Source of the DNA: an uncultured Acidimicrobiales bacterium
GTDB lineage: Bacteria; Actinomycetota; Acidimicrobiia; Acidimicrobiales; Aldehydirespiratoraceae
Assembly: GCA_958296055.1 (NCBI GenBank)
Contig: CATQHS010000001.1
Span: 289,917 to 353,916, forward strand
Direction: 5' to 3'
Length of the DNA stretch: 64,000 nucleotides
Both the position numbers and the translations under genes were made by a program. This document shows positions 6,477-60,356 of this stretch, one piece after another. Under the pieces are notes generated by a model that ran no database searches, was not told the origin of the DNA, and worked only from the letters and a program-made list of their open reading frames with translations. Numbering within the stretch: the stretch's first letter is position 1; every line of letters begins with the position of its first letter.

Positions 6477-6520
6477 CGGCCAGCGCCCCCGCCCAAGCCC
6501 ACCGCCACCTCGCAGTTCAC
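6473..6520 (-). other. Bridging mini-ORF pgsA-cinA (duplicated cinA start)
   Basis: A 15-codon frame (MNCEVAVGLGGGAGR) begins with a GTG overlapping the pgsA stop (GTGA) and ends with a TGA overlapping the cinA GTG (GTGA). Its first bases, GTGAACTGCGAGGTGG, are the same as the real cinA start, so the cinA 5' end was duplicated into the gap. Translation of the peptide is not proven; the geometry would let terminating ribosomes pass from pgsA to cinA. Confidence 0.55.
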
Positions 6521-48790: not shown

Positions 48791-48837
48791 CCCGGGCGAC
48801 GGCCGCACCGGCGGATCGCTCCCCGGCCCCGGATCAC
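48787..48837 (-). other. Bridging mini-ORF after hhyL
   Basis: 16 codons (MIRGRGAIRRCGRRPG): GTG overlaps the hhyL stop and TGA overlaps the next gene's GTG. Confidence 0.5.
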
Positions 48838-50780
48838 TCCAGGGTGCAACCGCAGGAGTTGACCTCGCGGGTGATGACGCCTCTTCCGGTGTCCATGTGG
48901 GTGGTGCAGGGCATGCACGGGTCGAAGCTGCGGATGGACCGCAGGATGTCGATCCCCTTGATGTCGTCGTCGGCCACGCTCTCCAGCAGCGGGGTGCCGA
49001 CGATGGCCTCCTCGTAGGGGCCGGGGTTGCCGAACGGGTCCCGGGGCGAGGCGTTCCAGGTAGAGGGGGTGTTGATCTGGTAGTTGAGCAGCTTGCCCTT
49101 GTCCATGTGCAGGTGGTGGGTGAGGTAGCCGCGGCCCGCTTCCCACGCCCCCATCGCCACCCGCTCGTCGGTGGGGACCTTGAACGGGGTCGACACCCTG
49201 GTCTCGCCCTTGCGCCAGTACTCGAAGGCCTGCATCAGGCAGATCATGCCGATGGCGGCGGTGAACCCCACCCCGTAGGCCCGGCCCCGGTTGCGCTCGA
49301 AGGCGTTGAGCTTGGCCGGGATCTTCCACTCCAGCTCGGTCTCGGGCAGGTCGTGGGCGGGCAGCAGGATGCGCAGCCCGTCGCCGGTGGCCTCTATGTA
49401 GGGGTTGTCGGGGAGCTGGCGGGCCATGGCCGTGGTCCACATCCGCCCGTACACGCCGGTCTCCATGGAGATCCGGTCCCAGCGGGGGGCGGTGGCCCAG
49501 GAGTACTTCTCCTTGAAGTTCTTGCCCTCAGGCCGGGGGATGGTCTCCTTGTTCCAGGCGTGGTACGGCGACAGCGGGTTGCCCAGCGCGTCGGCCGCGA
49601 ACCGGGGTCCGCCCCGCCCCGCCCCGTTGCCGTTGCCGTTGGACCCGTTCGGGTTGGCACCCGAGCCGTTCCAGCCCGCGGTCCAGTCCTCGTAGTAGGA
49701 GTGCTCGACGAACTCCTCTATCCCCATGTTGATCTCGGTCAGCTTGGTGGTGACCAGCTCGCCGTCCTTGACGATGCCCGGCGCCGAATACCGGGCCTGC
49801 CCCCAGGCGTCGATGTTGGCGTAGGTGGCGTCGTAGACGGCGGGGTCGTCCCAGATGCCGGTCTGGATCAGGTTGGAGGGCCGCAGCCCCACGTCGGAGT
49901 AGCGGGGGTCGGCTTCCAGGAAGAAGTCGCAGATGTCGTCCCAGATCCCGGCCAGGCGCTTGGCGTAGTCGAAGATCTTGCCCAGGTTGGCGTAGTACTC
50001 GTTGAAGGTGGAGGTGCTGACCGTGGTGGACACCCCGCCGGGCACCAGGGTGGACGGGTGCGGGTACTTGCCGTACATCAGCGTGCACATGGTGCGGGCG
50101 ATGCGGGTGTACTCCAGGGACTCGAGGTAGATGGCGCCTTCGAGGGGGTTGAACCCGTCCATGATGTCCTTGACGGTCCTGAAGCCGTGCACATCGGCGT
50201 GGGGGGCCGGGGTCTTGGCCGCCCGCTCCACCAGCTCGGGGTTGGTGACCGACACGATGGCGGTGGAGTAGTCGGGGCCGGCCAACAGGCCCAGGTGCAG
50301 CGGGTGGTCGTAGAACATCTCGGCCACCTCGCCCAGGTTGCGCACGCAGGTGCCCAGCGGCGGGGACACGATCCCGAACGCCATCTCCATGGCCAGCGAC
50401 GAAACCGTGGAGTGAACGCCCCCGCACACCCCGCAGGCCCTTGAGGAGATGTCGATGGCGTCGCGGGGGTCCCGGCCCTTCAGGATGATCTCATAGCCCC
50501 GGAACAGCATGGCCATCGAGTGGGCCTCGACCGCGGTGCGGGTCTCCAGGTCGAGCACGGTGTGCACGGCCAGGGCCCCCGCCACCCGGGTGACCGGGTC
50601 GATGCTCCACTCCCGCAGCCGGGGCGGGGCGGCCAGGGCCCCGGCGCTGGACCGGGCCTGGGCGCTGCGGACGAAGTCTTTGGGCTCGGCCACCGCCACC
50701 GCGTACGGGTCGGCCACCCCCTCGGCCAGGCGGGCTCGGCCATCGGAGTCGAAGGTGATGGGCAGGTTCTTGAAGCACAT
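48834..50780 (-). CDS. hhyL: [NiFe]-hydrogenase large subunit, group 1h type
   Basis: 648 residues. The N-terminal Ni ligands lie in RACGVCGGVHSTV (Cys116 and Cys119) and the C-terminal ones in SFDPCMPCTTHMDTG (Cys622 and Cys625, His628). Twenty residues follow this His, ending CGCTLE. The long form and RACGVCGGVHS are typical of the actinobacterial high-affinity group 1h (formerly group 5) enzymes that oxidise atmospheric H2. A Gly/Asn run GSNGNGNGAGRGG marks a loop expansion. ATG at 50780 has no close Shine-Dalgarno; the mini-ORF from hhyS ends 7 nt upstream. Made together with hhyS. Confidence 0.95.
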   Translation of the reverse strand: MCFKNLPITFDSDGRARLAEGVADPYAVAVAEPKDFVRSAQARSSAGALAAPPRLREWSIDPVTRVAGALAVHTVLDLETRTAVEAHSMAMLFRGYEIILKGRDPRDAIDISSRACGVCGGVHSTVSSLAMEMAFGIVSPPLGTCVRNLGEVAEMFYDHPLHLGLLAGPDYSTAIVSVTNPELVERAAKTPAPHADVHGFRTVKDIMDGFNPLEGAIYLESLEYTRIARTMCTLMYGKYPHPSTLVPGGVSTTVSTSTFNEYYANLGKIFDYAKRLAGIWDDICDFFLEADPRYSDVGLRPSNLIQTGIWDDPAVYDATYANIDAWGQARYSAPGIVKDGELVTTKLTEINMGIEEFVEHSYYEDWTAGWNGSGANPNGSNGNGNGAGRGGPRFAADALGNPLSPYHAWNKETIPRPEGKNFKEKYSWATAPRWDRISMETGVYGRMWTTAMARQLPDNPYIEATGDGLRILLPAHDLPETELEWKIPAKLNAFERNRGRAYGVGFTAAIGMICLMQAFEYWRKGETRVSTPFKVPTDERVAMGAWEAGRGYLTHHLHMDKGKLLNYQINTPSTWNASPRDPFGNPGPYEEAIVGTPLLESVADDDIKGIDILRSIRSFDPCMPCTTHMDTGRGVITREVNSCGCTLE

Positions 50781-50787
50781 GGCCGGG

Positions 50788-50886
50788 TCAGCCTCCGGTG
50801 GGTGAGTCGGCGGGGGCAGGAGCAGGAACGGGGGCGGAGTCCGGCCGCGGGCCGCGGTGTGAGCCCGCGGTCGGGTAAGAGGCCAT
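50788..50886 (-). other. Mini-ORF between hhyS and hhyL
   Basis: 32 codons starting MASYPTAGSHRG, Pro/Ala-rich later. Starts 2 nt past the hhyS stop (TGAGGATG) and ends 7 nt before hhyL. It keeps the gap open to ribosomes, unlike a plain spacer, but its overlaps are looser than at other junctions. Confidence 0.4.
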
Positions 50887-50888
50887 CC

Positions 50889-52121
50889 TCAGCCGCCTTC
50901 GCGGGAGTGCTGGCGGCGGGAGTAGAGGCGATGCACCAGGCGCTCGGCCCCCACCGGCTGGGTCTTGTACCGGCCCCAGCCGCTGGGCAGGTCGCGGTCG
51001 CCGTCCCAGCGGGCTGAGCGCATCTTGTCGGTCTGGGACAGGCGGCGCAGACGGCGGATGAACCCGCCCATAACCCGGTTGGCGTTGGTGGACAGCAAGG
51101 CGCCGGGAGGGCGCTCGTAGAAGGGCGAGAACTTGTCGGGGAACCCCGGCATGGTGCACCCGATGCAGATGCCGCCCATGTTCATGCAGCCGCCGTGGCC
51201 GTCCACGATGCCCCGCTCGGCGATGTTGCACTGCACCACCGGGCCCCAGCAGCCCAGCTCCACCAGGCACTCCTTGTCGCCGTAGGAGTGGGCGAACACC
51301 CCCTCCTCGTAGTAGCCGGCCCGAGGGCAATGGCGGTGGACGGTCTCGGTGAACAGCCAGGCCGGCCGGCCCAGCTCGTCGAACTCGGGCAGCGGGGCCA
51401 GCCCGTTGAGGAACAGCAGGGCGGCGGCCGCGGTCTCGGTGATGTTGTCGCCGATGGGCGAGCAGCCCGGGACGTTGATGACTGGCAGGCCCAGCGCCGA
51501 GCGGTAGTCCTTGCCCAGATGGTCCATCACTCCCATGGCGTTGGTGGGGTTGCCGTGGGCGGCGGGGATGCCGCCCCAGCAGGCGCAGGTGCCGATGGCC
51601 AGCACCGCCGCCGCGCCCGGGGCCATCCGGTCCAGCCACTCCAGGCTGGTGATCTGGCGGCCGTCGGCGGGGTCCTCGCCCAGGCCCATCCAGTAGCCGT
51701 GCTCGCCCGAGACGGTCTCGTCCATGACCGACCCCTCCCAGGCGATCAGATAAGGGGCGTCGAGCTTGCCCTCAGCGGCCAGGCGGAGGTTCTCGGTCCA
51801 CTCCGGGCCGGACTCCACCGACAGCACGGTGTGGACGATCTCGATCCGGGGCAGCCCCGGCACCCGGCCGTTGAGCAGGTCCTCCACCGGCGGGTGGGTG
51901 GCGCCGGCCACCGCAATGGTGCAGCCGTCGCAGCTCGCGCCCACAATCCAGAACAGGTAGGCCTTCTCCAGCGGCCCCTGCGACACCAGATCAGACCGCT
52001 TGGGCCGGCGGGCGCTGCGCAGCGCCACCGGGGCGAAGGGATCGTCGGGGTCGGTGACCAGCGGCTTGGCCTCGATCTCGCCGTGGGGAACCCCGGGCAC
52101 GACCTTGGTGTACTGGGTCAC
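50889..52121 (-). CDS. hhyS: [NiFe]-hydrogenase small subunit, group 1h type
   Basis: 410 residues from the GTG at 52121, with GGAGAGG 7 nt upstream. No Tat signal peptide is present, as in group 1h. Fe-S ligands: SCDGCTIAVAGA (Cys64, Cys67) and GTCACWGGIPAA for the proximal cluster, GCSPIGDN, then HRHCPRAGYYEEG and ELGCWGP, and CMNMGGICIGCTMPGFPDKF for the distal clusters. Asp65 next to the first Cys, in place of a Cys, fits the reports that this group's proximal cluster has an Asp ligand (established for the Ralstonia enzyme; which Asp is not shown here). Electrons from H2 leave through this chain to the respiratory chain. Confidence 0.95.
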   Translation of the reverse strand: MTQYTKVVPGVPHGEIEAKPLVTDPDDPFAPVALRSARRPKRSDLVSQGPLEKAYLFWIVGASCDGCTIAVAGATHPPVEDLLNGRVPGLPRIEIVHTVLSVESGPEWTENLRLAAEGKLDAPYLIAWEGSVMDETVSGEHGYWMGLGEDPADGRQITSLEWLDRMAPGAAAVLAIGTCACWGGIPAAHGNPTNAMGVMDHLGKDYRSALGLPVINVPGCSPIGDNITETAAAALLFLNGLAPLPEFDELGRPAWLFTETVHRHCPRAGYYEEGVFAHSYGDKECLVELGCWGPVVQCNIAERGIVDGHGGCMNMGGICIGCTMPGFPDKFSPFYERPPGALLSTNANRVMGGFIRRLRRLSQTDKMRSARWDGDRDLPSGWGRYKTQPVGAERLVHRLYSRRQHSREGG

Positions 52122-52201
52122 TGGCAGCCTCTCCGATGGTCGTGGCGGGCGCTGGGCGTCACCGGCAATCCTCCCCCGTTGGCAGCGGCGACATCCTAAC
52201 A

Positions 52202-52222
52202 CTAGGTGCGGATCGCATCTAG
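52202..52222. promoter_or_regulatory. Dyad in the divergent hhyS promoter region
   Basis: CTAGGTGCG-GAT-CGCATCTAG, a 9+9 bp inverted repeat with one mismatch and a 3-bp spacer, sits in the 160-nt gap between hhyS (minus) and the small membrane gene (plus), about 80 nt from each start. This is where a repressor or activator of both operons would bind. The PadR and winged-helix proteins encoded nearby are candidates (inferred). Confidence 0.5.
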
Positions 52223-53551: not shown

Positions 53552-53927
53552 ACCGGGCGCGCCGCGAGGAGAGCCTCCGGCGAGTGCCGGGGCGCTGCCC
53601 CGGTCGTTTCTGCGCTCGTTTCTGCTGCTGGCCCTCGACCGCGGCGGCCGCTCCTACGGCTACGAGCTGTTCGAAACGGTGCAGGCCCAGGGCCTGGTCA
53701 CCGACTTGGCCGGGGTGTACCGGGCTCTGAGGGCCATGCAGCGCCACGATCTGGTCACCTCGGTCTGGGAGCCCTCGGCCAGCGGCCCCGACCGGCGGGT
53801 CTACGCCCTGTCCGAACCGGGCCGGGGGGCCGCGGCCGAAGCGGCCCGAGAGCTGCTGGGCATCCGCGACGCCCTGTCGGCGGCCCTGGGCCGTTTTGAC
53901 GCGGCCACCGCCGGGCGGTCGGCGTGA
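53541..53927 (+). CDS. PadR-family transcriptional regulator
   Basis: 128 residues. PRSFLRSFLLLALDRGGRSYGYELFETVQAQGL and LAGVYRALRAMQRHDLV, then GPDRRVYALSEPGRGAAAE with the wing and start of the dimerisation helix, are typical of short PadR proteins. The ATG at 53541 lies 11 nt inside the metal-tail gene. Probably controls the divergent hydrogenase operons, directly or with the metal-tail protein; the operator candidate is at 52202-52222. Confidence 0.85.
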   Translation: MTTEPGAPRGEPPASAGALPRSFLRSFLLLALDRGGRSYGYELFETVQAQGLVTDLAGVYRALRAMQRHDLVTSVWEPSASGPDRRVYALSEPGRGAAAEAARELLGIRDALSAALGRFDAATAGRSA

Positions 53928-53998
53928 GGCCGGCCCGGGCGGGCCGACAGAGCCTCCGGCCGGGTGCCTCCAGCGACGCTCGGGGGCGGCGGGCGTGA
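53924..53998 (+). other. Bridging mini-ORF PadR-CooC1
   Basis: 24 codons, start MRPARAGRQS. GTG overlaps the PadR stop and TGA overlaps the CooC1 GTG; both ends share CGTGAGGC(C/T)GGCC. The start of CooC1 was copied into the gap. Confidence 0.55.
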
Positions 53999-54798
53999 GG
54001 CTGGCCGTGGCCGGCAAGGGGGGCGCGGGCAAGACCACGTTCTGCGCCACCGCGGCCCGCCTGCTGGGCCGAGCCGGGCGCCGGGTGGTGGCCATCGACG
54101 GCGACACCAACCCCAATCTCCACGCCGCCGTCGGGTTGGCCGCGCCGGCCGGGGAGTTCGCCTCGCTGCCGGTCGATCTGGTGTCGCGCCGGCTCGACGG
54201 ACCGGCCCTGAAGGTTCCGGCGGCCGAGGTGCTGGACCGCTACGGGGTCCGGGGCCCCGACGGGGTGGTGGTGATGCGGATGGGCGCGGCCGGCCACGCC
54301 GACGAGGGGTGCCTGTGCTCGGCCCATGCCGTGGTCTCCGCTTTGCTGGCCGACTTGGGGGCCGAGCCGGGGCTCGTCACCGTTTTGGACCTAGAGGCCT
54401 CCCCCGAGCATCTGAGCCGGGGCACCGCTCGCCACGCCGACGTGCTGGCCCTGATGGCCGAGCCCTACTACCGGTCGCTGGAGGCGGTGCGGCTCCAAGC
54501 CCGGCTGGCGGCGGAGACCTCGATAGGCCGGGTGGCGGTGGTGGCCAACAAGTGCCGCCGCCCCGCCGAGGCCGACGCCATCGCCGAGTTCTGCCAGCGC
54601 CACGGCTTGGAGCTGGCCGGGGTCATCGGGTGGAGCGACGCCGCCCTCGACGCCGACGCGGCCTCGGTCCCGGTGCTCGACTACCCCGGCGCCGAGCCGA
54701 TGGCCGAAGCGGTGGCCGCGGCCGTGGTCCGGCTCCTTGACCTAGACGATCCTCTCCCGGTTCCCAGGCCAGCCGCAGAGGCGGGGGCGCGGGCCTGA
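53995..54798 (+). CDS. CooC-like MinD/ArsA-superfamily ATPase 1
   Basis: 267 residues. Deviant Walker A VAGKGGAGKTTF, a switch VVAIDGDTNPNLHAAVG as in CooC, GCLCSAHAVV (C-x-C ahead of His, the CooC/Fe-protein-like ligand pair), LDLEASPEHLSRG, and VVANKCRRP. CooC supplies Ni2+ or ATP-driven change to nickel CO dehydrogenase. Beside hypC it may serve nickel delivery to HhyL, in the place of HypB (inferred). Start GTG on a mini-ORF overlap; stop overlaps hypC by TGATG. Confidence 0.85.
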   Translation: MRLAVAGKGGAGKTTFCATAARLLGRAGRRVVAIDGDTNPNLHAAVGLAAPAGEFASLPVDLVSRRLDGPALKVPAAEVLDRYGVRGPDGVVVMRMGAAGHADEGCLCSAHAVVSALLADLGAEPGLVTVLDLEASPEHLSRGTARHADVLALMAEPYYRSLEAVRLQARLAAETSIGRVAVVANKCRRPAEADAIAEFCQRHGLELAGVIGWSDAALDADAASVPVLDYPGAEPMAEAVAAAVVRLLDLDDPLPVPRPAAEAGARA

Positions 54799-55067
54799 TG
54801 TGTGTGGGGATTCCGGCCCGGGTGGTCGAACTCGGCCCGGCCGGGTCGCACTCCGCCATCGTGGACGTGGAGGGAGTGCGCCGCGAGGTCAACACGGTCA
54901 TGGTGGACGACGACGGCCTGGCCGCGGGCGAGTGGGTGCTGCTGCATGTCGGCTTCGCGCTCACCAAGATCGACGAGGCCGAGGCGGCCGAGACCCTGGC
55001 CTTCATGCGCCAGCTCGGGTCGGTGTACGACGAAGAGATCGAAGCGGTGGGCATTGAGCTGCCGTGA
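54798..55067 (+). CDS. hypC: Hydrogenase assembly chaperone HypC
   Basis: 89 residues with the essential N-terminal Cys motif MCVGIPARVVEL, and VNTVMVDDDGLAAGEWVLLHVGFALTKID in the OB-fold core. HypC carries the Fe(CN)2CO moiety between HypD and the large subunit. Clear hypC by length and start. Overlaps CooC1 by 1 nt, and its stop begins a three-step mini-ORF chain. Confidence 0.95.
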   Translation: MCVGIPARVVELGPAGSHSAIVDVEGVRREVNTVMVDDDGLAAGEWVLLHVGFALTKIDEAEAAETLAFMRQLGSVYDEEIEAVGIELP

Positions 55068-55226
55068 ACTCGGCAGGCAACGACCAGATCGCGGCCGGGG
55101 CCAAGTCGCCGTGAACTCGGCCCACGACGAGGAGGCCGGAGCCGTGAGCGCCGCGCCGTCATGAGCGTCGCCGCCCCTACCGTCATCGACTGCGCCCGCC
55201 GACCGGTACACGCCGAGCCGTCATGA
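55064..55226 (+). other. Chain of three mini-ORFs between hypC and the SIS gene
   Basis: Frames 55064-55114 (16 codons, MNSAGNDQIAAGAKSP), 55111-55164 (17 codons, MNSAHDEEAGAVSAAPS) and 55161-55226 (21 codons, start MSVAAPTVIDCARRPV) each overlap the next by exactly 4 nt (GTGA, ATGA, ATGA). The first starts on the hypC stop; the last ends on the SIS gene start. The third opens with a perfect 53-bp copy (55155-55207 equals 55217-55269) of the SIS gene's 5' end. Confidence 0.6.
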
Positions 55227-55269
55227 GCGTCGCCGCCCCTACCGTCATCGACTGCGCCCGCCGACCGGT
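55155..55269 (+). repeat. Perfect 53-bp direct repeat covering the SIS gene start
   Basis: 55155-55207 and 55217-55269 are identical, separated by 9 nt. Each contains ATGAGCGTCGCC with the first codons of the SIS gene. The offset of 62 nt is not a multiple of three, so the first copy cannot simply lengthen the protein. Confidence 0.95.
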
Positions 55270-56338
55270 GGACGCCGCACTGTGGCTGGCCCGGGCCTTC
55301 ACCTCCGGCCGGGCTCTGATGGTGCGGGCCCCCGGCTGCGAGGACCACGCCCATCACGTGGCCGTCGAGTTCGTACACCCGGTGGTGGCCGGGGCCCGGT
55401 CTCTGCCCGCGGCCGCGGGCAGCTACGGGCCGCCCCCGGCCGGTCCTCCGCCGTTCGCCACCGCCACCGGCCCGCTCGGGACGGGCGCTGGCGCCCGCTG
55501 GTGCCACCTGCTTATCGGGCCGCCCGACGGCGGGCCCGCCGACCTGTCAATCCCCGCCGACGACGGCGACGCCGCGGTGATGACCGGCTACCACCTGCTG
55601 TGGGAGTTGGTGCAAGTGGCCCTCGAGCACCCCGGCCTAGTGGGCACCTTCGACGCCTCCGGCCGCCACTCCGACCGCGGCGACTCCAACTCCAACGGCG
55701 ACTCTGGCAACGGCGACTCCACCGGGTTCCTGTATCCGTTCCTGGACGCGGCCGAGAGCGACGAGGCCTCCCTGCGCTCGGCCCTGGAGGCCTCGGTCTT
55801 CGCCAAGCGGGCCTCCTCGCAGCAGCTGGCCGCCGAGTCGGTGGCCGCCAACCGACCGGCCCTGGAGGCGGCGGCGGCCATGGTGAACGGCACCGTCGCC
55901 GCCGGGGGGCGGGTGCTGACCATGGGCAACGGGGGGAGCGCGGCCGACGCGGCCCGTCTGGTGAGGCTGCTCGGGGCCCGGGGGGTGGAGGCTCTCTCCC
56001 TGGCCGGTGATTACGCGGTGGTCTCGGCTCTGGCCAACGACCTGGGTGCCGAGGCGGTGTTCGCCCGCCAGATCGAGGCCCTGGGCGCCCCTGGCGACGT
56101 GCTGATCGGGTGCAGCACCAGCGGCGCTTCGCCCAATCTGCTGGCCGCCTTCGAGCGGGCCGCGGCCAGCGGCGTGAGGACCGTCGGGATCAGCGGCTAC
56201 GGCGGAGGCGCCTTTGCCGCCCGGGGCGGTGCCGAGGTGTGCCTGGCGGTGGCCTCCGATTCGGTGCACCGCATCCAAGAGGCCGAGGCCGCCCTCACCG
56301 CCGAGCTGTGCCGCCGGATCGAACCGGCCCGGCCGTGA
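55223..56338 (+). CDS. SIS-domain protein (GmhA/phosphoheptose-isomerase-like) in the hyp operon
   Basis: 371 residues. C-terminal half is a SIS domain with TMGNGGSAADAARL, VFARQIEALGAPGDVLIGCSTSGASPNLLAAFERA and SVHRIQEAEAALTAELC, as in sedoheptulose-7-phosphate isomerase GmhA. The N-terminal ~180 residues are extra, with CEDHAHHVAVEF and a Gly/Asn/Ser run (GDSNSNGDSGNGD). Its place between hypC and hypD is unusual for a sugar enzyme: it may bind or protect an intermediate of cofactor synthesis, or it may be structurally repurposed. Function not known. Confidence 0.75.
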   Translation: MSVAAPTVIDCARRPVDAALWLARAFTSGRALMVRAPGCEDHAHHVAVEFVHPVVAGARSLPAAAGSYGPPPAGPPPFATATGPLGTGAGARWCHLLIGPPDGGPADLSIPADDGDAAVMTGYHLLWELVQVALEHPGLVGTFDASGRHSDRGDSNSNGDSGNGDSTGFLYPFLDAAESDEASLRSALEASVFAKRASSQQLAAESVAANRPALEAAAAMVNGTVAAGGRVLTMGNGGSAADAARLVRLLGARGVEALSLAGDYAVVSALANDLGAEAVFARQIEALGAPGDVLIGCSTSGASPNLLAAFERAAASGVRTVGISGYGGGAFAARGGAEVCLAVASDSVHRIQEAEAALTAELCRRIEPARP

Positions 56339-56409
56339 GAGCCAGCCCGGCGGCCGGCCCGCCAACGAGGACGGCCCCGCCGGTGGCGGGCCCGAGGCGT
56401 CAGTCGTGA
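56335..56409 (+). other. Bridging mini-ORF SIS-hypD
   Basis: 24 codons starting MRASPAAGPP; GTG overlaps the SIS stop and TGA overlaps the hypD GTG (GTGA both ends). Confidence 0.55.
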
Positions 56410-57533
56410 AGTACATCGACGAGTACCGCGACCCGGAGACGGCCCGGGTGCTGCTGGGCGAGATCGAAGCGCTGGCCGCCGATCAGCCCCAGCGCAAGCT
56501 GATGGAGGTCTGCGGAGGCCACACCCACGCCATCTACCGCCACGGCATCGAGTCGCTGCTGCCCGACAGCATCGAATTGGTGCATGGGCCGGGGTGCCCG
56601 GTGTGCGTCATCCCCATGGGCCGGGTGGACGACGCCATCGCCGTGGCCCGGGCCGACGGCGTCACCCTGTGCTGCTTCGGCGACATGCTGCGGGTGCCGG
56701 GCGGCGACTCGACCCTCCAAGAGGCCAAGGCCGGCGGCGCCGACGTGCGGATCGTGTACTCGCCGCTGGACGCCCTGGCCCTGGCCGAGCGCGAGCCCGA
56801 CCGGGAGGTGGTGTTTCTGGCGGTGGGGTTCGAGACCACCGCCCCCTCTACCGCCGCCACCGTGCTGGCCGCCCGGGACCGGGGAGTCCGAAACTTCAGC
56901 GTCTTCTGCAACCACGTCACCATCGTCCCCCCGCTCAAGGCCATCCTCGACTCGCCCGGCTTGGACCTCGACGGGTTCCTGGGGCCCGGCCACGTCTCCA
57001 CCGTGATCGGAACCGACCCCTTCAGGTTCGTGCCCGCCCAATACGGGCGGCCGCTGGTGGTGGCCGGGTTCGAGCCGGTGGACGTCCTCCAAGGGGTGTC
57101 CATGCTGCTGCGCCAACTCGGCGGGGGCCGCTGCGAGGTGGAGAACCAGTACCGACGGGCGGTCGGCGGCGGCGGCAACCGGCGGGGGTTGGAGCTGATG
57201 CGGGAGGCGTTCGTGCTGCGGCCCCATTTCGAGTGGCGGGGCCTGGGGTTCATCGCCCAAAGCGCCTTGGCCCTGGCCCCCGGGCTGGCCGACTGGGACG
57301 CCGAGATCCGCTTCGATGTGCCCGGCCTGCGGGTGGCCGACCCCAAGGCCTGCCAGTGCGGCGAGGTGCTCAAAGGAGCGCTACGGCCCTGGGAGTGCAA
57401 GGTGTTCGGCACTGCCTGCACCCCCGAGTCGCCCATAGGCACCTGCATGGTGTCCTCCGAGGGCGCCTGCGCGGCCTACTACAACTACGGGCGCTACTCG
57501 CCCCGGGCCCGCATCCCCGTCTCGGCAAGCTGA
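56406..57533 (+). CDS. hypD: Hydrogenase maturation protein HypD
   Basis: 375 residues from GTG 56406. Shows the active-site Cys of LMEVCGGHTHAIYRHG and GPGCPVCVIP, the redox Cys pair region VFCNHVTIVP, and the [4Fe-4S] ligands KACQCGEVL, ECKVFGTACTPESPIGTCMVSSEGACAAYYNYGR. HypD is the scaffold on which HypE-thiocyanate and HypC assemble Fe(CN)2CO. Full length. Confidence 0.95.
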   Translation: MKYIDEYRDPETARVLLGEIEALAADQPQRKLMEVCGGHTHAIYRHGIESLLPDSIELVHGPGCPVCVIPMGRVDDAIAVARADGVTLCCFGDMLRVPGGDSTLQEAKAGGADVRIVYSPLDALALAEREPDREVVFLAVGFETTAPSTAATVLAARDRGVRNFSVFCNHVTIVPPLKAILDSPGLDLDGFLGPGHVSTVIGTDPFRFVPAQYGRPLVVAGFEPVDVLQGVSMLLRQLGGGRCEVENQYRRAVGGGGNRRGLELMREAFVLRPHFEWRGLGFIAQSALALAPGLADWDAEIRFDVPGLRVADPKACQCGEVLKGALRPWECKVFGTACTPESPIGTCMVSSEGACAAYYNYGRYSPRARIPVSAS

Positions 57534-57540
57534 TGGCCTG

Positions 57541-57660
57541 ATGACGGCCGAGGCCGAGGCGACCGGGCCGACGGGCCCAACGCCGGCCAGGGCCGAGGCG
57601 ACCGGGCCGACGGGCACAACGCCGGCCAGGGCCGAGGCGGCGCCCCCGCCGCCCCGCTGA
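57541..57660 (+). other. Bridging mini-ORF hypD-hypE with 39-bp repeats
   Basis: 39 codons, starting MTAEAEATGPTG. Its ATG joins a preceding 2-codon frame ATG GCC TGA (57533-57541) by TGATG, which itself starts on the hypD stop, and its TGA joins the hypE ATG by TGATG. The body is two 39-bp units, 57552-57590 and 57591-57629, plus 10 bases; unit length is a multiple of three. Confidence 0.5.
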
Positions 57661-58751
57661 TGGCCGCCAACGCCGACCGGGCCGCCCGCGAGGAGGTGCT
57701 GGCCCGGGTGGAGTCGTGGCGGCGGCGGGCGCCAAAGCTCACCGACAAGGTCGTCACCATGGCCCACGGCGCGGGAGGCAAGGCCGGCCAAGCCCTCCTG
57801 GAGGCAGTGATCCGGCCCGCCTTCTCCAACCCGGCGCTGGACCGCCTCGACGACGGCGCCGTGCTGGAGGCCCCGCCGGGCCGGAGGCTGGTGCTGACCA
57901 CCGACTCGTTCGTGGTCACCCCCCGACGATTCGGCGGCGGCTCCATCGGCGACTTGGCCGTCAACGGCACGGTGAACGACCTGGCGGCCATGGGGGCCGA
58001 ACCGCACGCCCTAGCCCTCTCCTTCGTGCTGGAAGAGGGACTGGCGGTGGCCGAGTTGCGCCAGATCGTCGCCGACGCGGCCGCGGCCGCCGCCCGGGCC
58101 GGGGCACCGGTGGTGACCGGAGACACCAAGGTGGTGGAGCGGGGGGCGGCCGACGGGTGCTACATCACCTCCAGCGGGGTGGGCTGGGTGATGCCGGGGC
58201 TGGAGTTGGGCGCGGAGCGGGTGCGGCCCGGCGACGCGGTGCTGGTGTCGGGGACCCTCGGCGACCACGGCACCGCGGTCATGGTGGCCCGCGGCGACCT
58301 GGCCCTGGCCTCCGCCGTCGAATCCGACACCGCCCCGCTGTGGGACCTGGCCGAGGCGCTGCTGACCGCCGTGCCTGAAACCCGCTGGATGCGGGACCCG
58401 ACCCGGGGCGGCCTGGCCTCGGCCGGCAACGAGCTGGCTGCCGCGGCCGGGGTGGGGATCCGGCTCTTCGAGCGCCGCCTGCCGGTGCGGCCGGAGGTGG
58501 CGGCGGCCTGCGAGCTGTTAGGCCTCGATCCGCTGCACATAGCCAACGAGGGCAAGCTGGCCGCGGTGGTCCCCGGCGACCGGGCCGACGCCGCGGTGGC
58601 CGCCATGCGGTCCTGCGCCACCGGTGCGGACGCCGCTATCGTCGGCGAGGTCACCGGCGAGCACCCCGGCTTGGTCGTCATCGAGACCGCCCTGGGCGGG
58701 ACCCGGATCGCGGACATGCTGGTCGGCGACCCACTCCCCCGCATCTGCTGA
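57660..58751 (+). CDS. hypE: Hydrogenase expression/formation protein HypE
   Basis: 363 residues; AIR-synthase-like fold with VVTMAHGAGGKAG, LDDGAVLEAPPGRRLVLTTDSFVVTP, GSIGDLAVNGTVNDLAAMGAEP, PVVTGDTKVVERG, and TRWMRDPTRGGLASAGNELA. It ends in PRIC, the C-terminal Cys that accepts a carbamoyl group and is dehydrated to thiocyanate. Start ATG on the TGATG overlap. Last plus-strand gene of the hyp operon before a G-free tract. Confidence 0.95.
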   Translation: MAANADRAAREEVLARVESWRRRAPKLTDKVVTMAHGAGGKAGQALLEAVIRPAFSNPALDRLDDGAVLEAPPGRRLVLTTDSFVVTPRRFGGGSIGDLAVNGTVNDLAAMGAEPHALALSFVLEEGLAVAELRQIVADAAAAAARAGAPVVTGDTKVVERGAADGCYITSSGVGWVMPGLELGAERVRPGDAVLVSGTLGDHGTAVMVARGDLALASAVESDTAPLWDLAEALLTAVPETRWMRDPTRGGLASAGNELAAAAGVGIRLFERRLPVRPEVAAACELLGLDPLHIANEGKLAAVVPGDRADAAVAAMRSCATGADAAIVGEVTGEHPGLVVIETALGGTRIADMLVGDPLPRIC

Positions 58752-59594: not shown

Positions 59595-60356
59595 TCAGCC
59601 CACCGGGGCGGGCTCGGGCCGGAGGTGGTCGGCCAGATGCTCCACGGCTTGCCATACGTCGGGGGCGGAGGTCCGCTCCAGGAGCAGGCCGAGCCGGTCG
59701 GCGGCGACCAGTTCTCCGCTGGCCGGTACGACCGCGTCGAGGGGCACCTCGTGCTGGCGGCACAGCTCTTCGAGCGCGTCGAGCTGGTCGGGGCCGTCCA
59801 CCTTGTTGCCCAGCCCGACCCAGGCCCCGATGCCCAGCTCTGCGGCCAGGGTGATGGTGCGCCGGGCGGTGATCACCGCCTTGCGGCTCGGCTCCATGAC
59901 CAGAACCAGCACGTCGGCGTGGGCCAAGGTGCCGCCGGAGCGGCTCAGGTGCTCGATGCCGGCCTCCATGTCGATGACGGTGTCGTCGGCCTCGGAGTCG
60001 AGGGCCTGGCCGAGCAGGCTGCGCACGGTGGCATGGCCTCCGCAGGTGCAGCCGGCCGCGGCCTCGGTCACCCGCAGGGCCGACATCAGGGCCACCCCCG
60101 CCGGGGTGGCGACCGCGTAATCCCCCATCAGCTCGGCCACGGTGAGGTCGCCCCGGGGGCCGACCACCGCCGAGCGGGGGACGACAGGGACGGCCTCGGT
60201 CTCAGCCGGGTCGAGCCCCAGGGACAGCCCGAGGTTGGGGTTGGAGTCGGTGTCCACCGCCAGCACCCGCCGGCCCCGCTCGGCCAGAGTACGGGCCAGC
60301 AGCGAAGCCACCGTCGTCTTGCCCGCGCCCCCCTTGCCGACCACGCCGATCTTCAC
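59595..60356 (-). CDS. CooC-like ATPase 2
   Basis: 253 residues from a GTG start. VVGKGGAGKTTVASLLA, VLAVDTDSNPNLGLSLGLD, CTCGGHATV (the C-x-C...H motif of CooC) and DMEAGIEHLSRSGGTLAHADVLVLVMEPSRKA match CooC-type Ni-insertion ATPases well, better than CooC1. It follows hypF by about 100 nt on the minus strand. Converges on the DUF3800-like gene. Confidence 0.9.
   Translation of the reverse strand: MKIGVVGKGGAGKTTVASLLARTLAERGRRVLAVDTDSNPNLGLSLGLDPAETEAVPVVPRSAVVGPRGDLTVAELMGDYAVATPAGVALMSALRVTEAAAGCTCGGHATVRSLLGQALDSEADDTVIDMEAGIEHLSRSGGTLAHADVLVLVMEPSRKAVITARRTITLAAELGIGAWVGLGNKVDGPDQLDALEELCRQHEVPLDAVVPASGELVAADRLGLLLERTSAPDVWQAVEHLADHLRPEPAPVG

Follow-up and report, generated by a model that had tools for sequence, protein, structure and literature searches.

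The 64,000 nucleotides (nt) of an uncultured Acidimicrobiales bacterium analysed here (the window; G000 in our genome comparisons) have a GC content of 69% and belong to a three-contig assembly of 95% completeness. On their plus strand they harbour a hydrogenase maturation (hyp) operon whose genes follow one another in the order P-loop ATPase, hypC, SIS-domain gene, hypD and hypE. The operon is recognised as such by the clustering of hypC, hypD and hypE in the vicinity of a [NiFe] hydrogenase and by scores of their products above the cut-offs of TIGR00074, TIGR00075 and TIGR02124, respectively. hypC (54798-55067, +) encodes a hydrogenase maturation chaperone of 89 amino acids (aa; Pfam HupF_HypC, 5e-24). 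The SIS-domain gene (55223-56338, +; SIS in the following) encodes a protein of 371 aa (Pfam SIS_2, 2.9e-16) whose C-terminal half resembles phosphoheptose isomerase, the gmhA model remaining below its cut-off. The two genes are linked by three very small open reading frames (mini-ORFs) via four exact 4-nt overlaps, GTGA, GTGA, ATGA and ATGA, the stop codon of hypC lying within the first of them. Mini-ORF 1 (55064-55114, +) comprises 16 codons starting with GTG (VNSAGNDQIAAGAKSP), mini-ORF 2 (55111-55164, +) 17 codons likewise starting with GTG (VNSAHDEEAGAVSAAPS), and mini-ORF 3 (55161-55226, +) 21 codons starting with ATG (MSVAAPTVIDCARRPVHAEPS), each being closed by a stop codon. These coordinates bear out the succession of frames overlapping by 4 nt between hypC and SIS which a preliminary description of the sequence had reported.

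Mini-ORF 3 is an out-of-frame copy of the 5' end of SIS. It belongs to a tandem duplication of 62 nt whose first copy (55149-55210, +) is identical at 59 of 62 positions to the second one (55211-55272, +); the latter holds the true SIS start, and the subsequent residues VDAALWLARAF match those of relatives. The two copies share an exact run of 53 nt (55155-55207) and the three mismatches are located just outside it. Hence, the perfect duplication of the gene start formerly described is perfect over these 53 nt, though not over the full unit, which in fact extends to 55272 and not merely to 55269. The event had also been considered recent. The 62-nt copy is the newest step at this junction but, with three differences already present, it is not brand new. 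Since 62 equals 2 modulo 3, the copy cannot fuse to SIS, so that mini-ORF 3 can, as originally stated, be coupled to the gene but not fused with it. Mini-ORF 2 is a diverged copy of mini-ORF 1, their start codons being offset by 47 nt, which is again 2 modulo 3. Their mutual similarity, likewise remarked upon before, yields an alignment score of 43. Of random pairs, 0.03% attain this score, and of pairs drawn from the window and anchored at NTGA, 0.025%, which amounts to roughly three control pairs in 10,000. Duplicated or frame-shifted bases erroneously introduced during sequencing or assembly might be held responsible for such a chain, all the more as the genome is an incomplete draft in three contigs. 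The 62-nt copies, however, differ at three bases, and duplications recur throughout the genome with different sequences and with a codon-phase bias (see below), unlike assembly error. To an artefact we hence assign next to no probability.

Comparison of the junction with that of relatives, which had been put forward as a check, reveals that where Acidimicrobiia share this gene order, SIS almost without exception overlaps hypC directly by ATGA or GTGA (L004, L005, L006, L009, L034-L037, L039, L040 and L042-L049). SIS of L006 starts ATGAACACGGGG. At that place the window has GTGAACTCGGCA, which now opens mini-ORF 1, so that the GTG of this mini-ORF occupies the SIS start position of relatives, and the conserved SIS start IDC...PVDAALWLARAF is displaced by 159 nt downstream. 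This unexpanded state of the relatives, together with the position of mini-ORF 1, supports the successive rounds of junction duplication which the preliminary description had suggested. Being the usual state in relatives, the direct overlap is probably ancestral, a polarity which we infer from their distribution. A single frame-shifted protein was ruled out, as SIS of relatives begins at the IDC motif directly after the overlap, without a long N-terminus.

The junction is not singular within the operon. SIS and hypD (56406-57533, +; GTG start, 375 aa; TIGR00075, 1.6e-141) are bridged by a mini-ORF of 24 codons (56335-56409, +) with GTGA at each end. Past hypD, a mini-ORF of only two codons (ATG GCC TGA; 57533-57541, +), joined by TGATG overlaps, is followed by one of 39 codons (57541-57660, +) which has TGATG at each end, contains an internal repeat with an offset of 39 nt and leads to hypE (57660-58751, +; 363 aa; TIGR02124, 1.1e-117). 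In relatives, SIS and hypD share a direct NTGA overlap except in L045, and hypD and hypE a TGATG overlap in most of the close ones. Throughout, the geometry in the window is that of stop/start coupling, i.e. same-strand overlaps of 4 nt or 1 nt: NTGA four times between hypC and SIS, GTGA twice and TGATG three times at the next two junctions.

Six expanded junctions with spacers of roughly 45-125 nt were found in relatives, namely hypC-SIS in L033, L041 and L182, SIS-hypD in L045, and hypD-hypE in L033 and L038. All of them are unbroken relays, the first step of the L033 hypD-hypE relay being adjacent (TAG then GTG) without overlap. Together with the three junctions of the window, nine expanded hyp junctions thus form relays. 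With overlaps kept, spacers shuffled and the length phase taken at random, the chance of a relay ranges from 0.001 to 0.35 per junction; on the conservative assumption of 1/3 for each, the binomial probability of relays at nine of ten expanded hyp junctions amounts to about 4e-4. A parsimony count over all rows requires four, two and three separate changes for the expansions on a tree of HypC, HypD and HypE. We would like to note that in L038 (same locus as L180) about 1.4 kb lie between hypC and SIS, where relatives overlap directly.

Several of the spacers in relatives (L041, L033, L038 and L045 junctions) hold a dispersed repeat. Over 40 copies of this repeat of about 75-100 bp (GAGGCCGAGCTTGCGAGGCCGTGGGCTGTG...GGCCCGTGAGCGCAGCGAAC; L041:2379-2506, L140-L159) exist in G031, and G069 yields 18 matches, many copies being located just past gene ends and both orientations being seen. 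It brings to mind the mycobacterial interspersed repetitive units (MIRUs). Lying between operon genes, whose expression they spare, these short units carry a small ORF in -4 nt coupling with its neighbours, and their insertion is said to take place at start codons, with a spacing of -4 (PMC12548453, reviewing Supply et al. 1997). Accordingly, the mini-ORFs of the window might have arisen by insertion of a mobile unit carrying its own small ORF at the stop/start overlap, an idea favoured by the occurrence of the dispersed repeat at four expanded junctions of relatives. The hypC-SIS mini-ORFs of the window resemble MIRUs in the geometry of the -4 nt overlaps with their neighbours. MIRUs, however, constitute one dispersed, apparently mobile family, whereas each spacer of the window is a local tandem copy of its own junction and unrelated to the others. 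A genome search with the 301-base hypC-SIS junction region found no second copy save for one 35-nt match of 86% identity, and the dispersed repeat of relatives has no copy in G000. Although the latter repeat comes nearer to MIRUs than the window spacers do, it is found outside such junctions, too. A mobile element in the window was ruled out by the genome search, and we regard a MIRU-like origin of the relay as highly improbable.

The RNA of the hypC-SIS junction folds less stably than its shuffles (z +1.74) and no Rfam family matches in the window, i.e. neither a stable alternative structure nor a known RNA family points to an attenuator or a structured leader. A structured RNA or riboswitch was ruled out on the same grounds. 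These observations also bear on the possibility that the mini-ORFs encode regulatory leader peptides which, as attenuator or upstream ORF, set the ratio of HypC to SIS and whose sequence matters. Mini-ORFs located upstream of genes are reported to act in these ways (PMC8092293, PMC11260477), and serial reinitiation steps should be expected to reduce the output of SIS relative to HypC. Yet sequences and lengths of the mini-ORFs are wholly different between species, most relatives do without any, and the RNA lacks stable structure. A role as leader peptides thus appears very unlikely to us; most likely, the mini-peptides have no function of their own.

Whether relays are frequent beyond this operon was addressed in the window and a further 1.2 Mb of its chromosome (1.26 Mb in total, less than half of the genome). 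For comparison, samples of 0.4 Mb were taken from G007, which belongs to the same family, from G042 of the same order and from G097 of the same phylum. Genes were called by a home-made codon-usage finder whose gene starts are imperfect. Among 304 co-directional gene pairs of G000 spaced by 10-160 nt without direct overlap, 63 are bridged by relays, defined by overlaps of -4 or -1, as opposed to 24.5 ± 3.9 if the spacers are shuffled (z 9.8). The excess was likewise seen in two earlier passes over the G000 sample, in which gene sets and gap limits differed slightly. In contrast, relays occur at chance level in G007 (4 vs 3.1), G042 (5 vs 4.2) and G097 (2 vs 1.5), with z values of 0.4-0.5. Hence, relays are not confined to the hyp operon but occur at about 60 of the junctions sampled in this genome, with up to four mini-ORFs between genes elsewhere in the sample. 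Spacers of 10-80 nt favour the relay phase (53, 95 and 64 for 0, 1 and 2 modulo 3; p 0.0012), while longer ones show no preference. Of the pairs running from NTGA to NTGA, 38 are in relay phase and 8 in the second phase that does not fuse (p 9e-6), the other 17 being in frame with the downstream gene; a separate count of the phases agrees. With the same finder none of the three comparison genomes shows a significant phase bias, the counts there being small. The same scan reveals further mini-ORF relays in the window at 53927-53998 (+) and at minus-strand junctions near 6516, 44615, 48226 and 48833.

Traces of duplication are evident at these relays. If the sequences to the right of the two NTGAs of a relay-phase pair are compared, they match over 2.4 nt on average, compared to 0.47 nt in mispaired controls, and matches of at least 6 nt are present in 6 of 42 such pairs versus 0.2% of controls. 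Examples of duplication-derived relays are located at sample positions 684674, 870020 and 855717 as well as on the minus strand of the window. Tandem duplications within junctions amount to 7.25 per 10 kb in G000 but to 1.5-3.3 in G007, G042 and G097, the respective values for coding DNA being 1.36 and 0.41-0.99. In coding DNA of G000, 133 of 147 tandem units are multiples of three nt in length. Over all junction tandem repeats, unit length modulo 3 proved uninformative (27, 30 and 18 for 2, 0 and 1), probably because many of these repeats extend into coding DNA. The SIS protein itself contains an in-frame insertion with repeats (SDRGDSNSNGDSGNGDS; window 55660-55725) which none of six relatives possesses, a further indication that small tandem duplications are frequent in G000. 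Taken together, the pattern requires both that duplications arise at an increased rate and that their phase is under selection.

We consider it probable that the relay between hypC and SIS was built by successive tandem duplications of the stop/start junction, those in the relay phase being preferentially retained owing to a dependence of the downstream gene on ribosomes handed over to it. Observed are the duplications, the exact overlaps, the genome-wide excess, the phase bias and the direct overlap as usual state; that selection for coupling is the cause, and that the mini-ORFs are translated, we infer from these. Small duplications, each including the overlap of hypC and SIS, would have built the chain in succession. 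Any duplicated unit of 2 modulo 3 which contains an NTGA gives rise to two NTGA overlaps and, between them, to a mini-ORF which begins at the first and closes at the second. Having translated hypC, a ribosome could then terminate and reinitiate four times, reaching SIS without crossing untranslated RNA. Coupling by termination and reinitiation at overlaps of -4 or -1 nt is established (Huber et al. 2019, PMC6728339; 2023, PMC10666635) and in reporters was almost abolished by a gap of about 20 nt (PMC10666635); therefore, a spacer must be translated if coupling is to persist. No Shine-Dalgarno (SD)-like sequence precedes SIS, any of the three mini-ORFs or hypE, so that SIS probably depends on hand-over. 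If SIS indeed relies on ribosomes arriving from hypC, duplications adding a spacer would persist mainly where this spacer is translated from end to end, while those in the other non-fusing phase would break the hand-over and be lost. The same process would have acted at many gene junctions of G000.

Several observations weigh against this explanation. The tenth expanded hyp junction, hypD-hypE of L182, has a 45-nt gap following TAG and no relay, which means that coupling is not absolute. In L182, too, the start of SIS was set where the hypC-SIS relay lands, a later in-frame ATG being an alternative. The phase bias depends on our home-made gene finder with its imperfect starts, even though the same finder yields no significant bias in the three controls. 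Moreover, at 69% GC many TGA stops will form part of a GTGA by mere chance, so that single GTGA relays can be accidental (null 24.5 of 63); the shuffles take this frequency into account. Finally, SD-like sequences are present before 26% of relay-fed genes and 29% of other spaced genes. SD loss as a general signature of relays is thus unsupported, and dependence on the relay may differ between junctions.

Some of these points would equally suit neutral debris, i.e. frequent duplications surviving at unimportant junctions, with SIS, hypD and hypE starting independently and the overlaps being a by-product of copying. Tandem duplications are raised in both coding and junction DNA of G000, even unselected copying of an NTGA yields a relay for roughly every third unit length, relay-fed genes show no depletion of SD-like sequences, and the gap in L182 is evidence that a break is tolerable. 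Neutrality, however, predicts equal phases, at variance with 38 pairs in relay phase compared to 8 in the other non-fusing one. Every expanded hyp junction apart from hypD-hypE of L182 is a relay, and unselected duplicates would also gain stops and shifts. We therefore deem neutral debris unlikely as the origin of the chain and retain duplication under selection for hand-over as the explanation. On balance, we lean slightly towards extending it to a genome-wide mode of operon evolution in which frequent junction duplication is filtered for the relay phase; roughly one in five spaced co-directional pairs would then be joined by meaningless translated relay ORFs and not by ribosome-binding sites.

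As to the surroundings of the described junctions, the P-loop ATPase gene preceding hypC extends from 53896 (or a later start) to 54798 (+) and its product shows weak likeness to named families. The same applies to a MinD/ArsA/ParA-like P-loop ATPase encoded directly past the hyp operon on the opposite strand (59595-60356, -). The [NiFe] hydrogenase adjoining the operon is encoded on the minus strand (48834-52202), and its small subunit is closest to that of PDB entry 5aa5, the actinobacterial-type hydrogenase of Ralstonia.

The mechanism invoked is known translational coupling. The systems studied by Huber et al. feature, like the window, exact ATGA/GTGA and TGATG overlaps of co-directional genes, yet they are direct gene pairs, whereas in the window one to three mini-ORFs derived from duplication of the overlap intervene. 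For Actinobacteria, Korolev et al. (2016, PMC4833913) proposed leader genes, short non-functional ORFs which would enhance translation of the following gene through reinitiation. While the mini-ORFs share with them the proposed feeding of the next gene, leader genes were sought in 5' leaders, at distances which were positive and peaked at 10-11 bp, and they lack double overlaps; the mini-ORFs, in contrast, are situated inside operons with overlaps of -4 or -1 on either side. The closest precedent is provided by the mycobacterial MIRUs. An earlier report of junction duplication creating relay ORFs genome-wide was not found in the open-licence literature and, as far as this goes, the genome-wide, duplication-built form is undescribed.

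There is continuing debate on whether ribosomes are passed on at overlaps or whether downstream starts are mostly fresh (PMC7538156 against PMC10666635). With respect to the role of overlaps, G000 represents a natural experiment, its junctions having been repeatedly pushed apart and the survivors being biased to the phase which keeps the overlap. Beyond that, our findings suggest a source of very short translated operon ORFs devoid of peptide function, which is of relevance to catalogues of small ORFs obtained from ribosome profiling.
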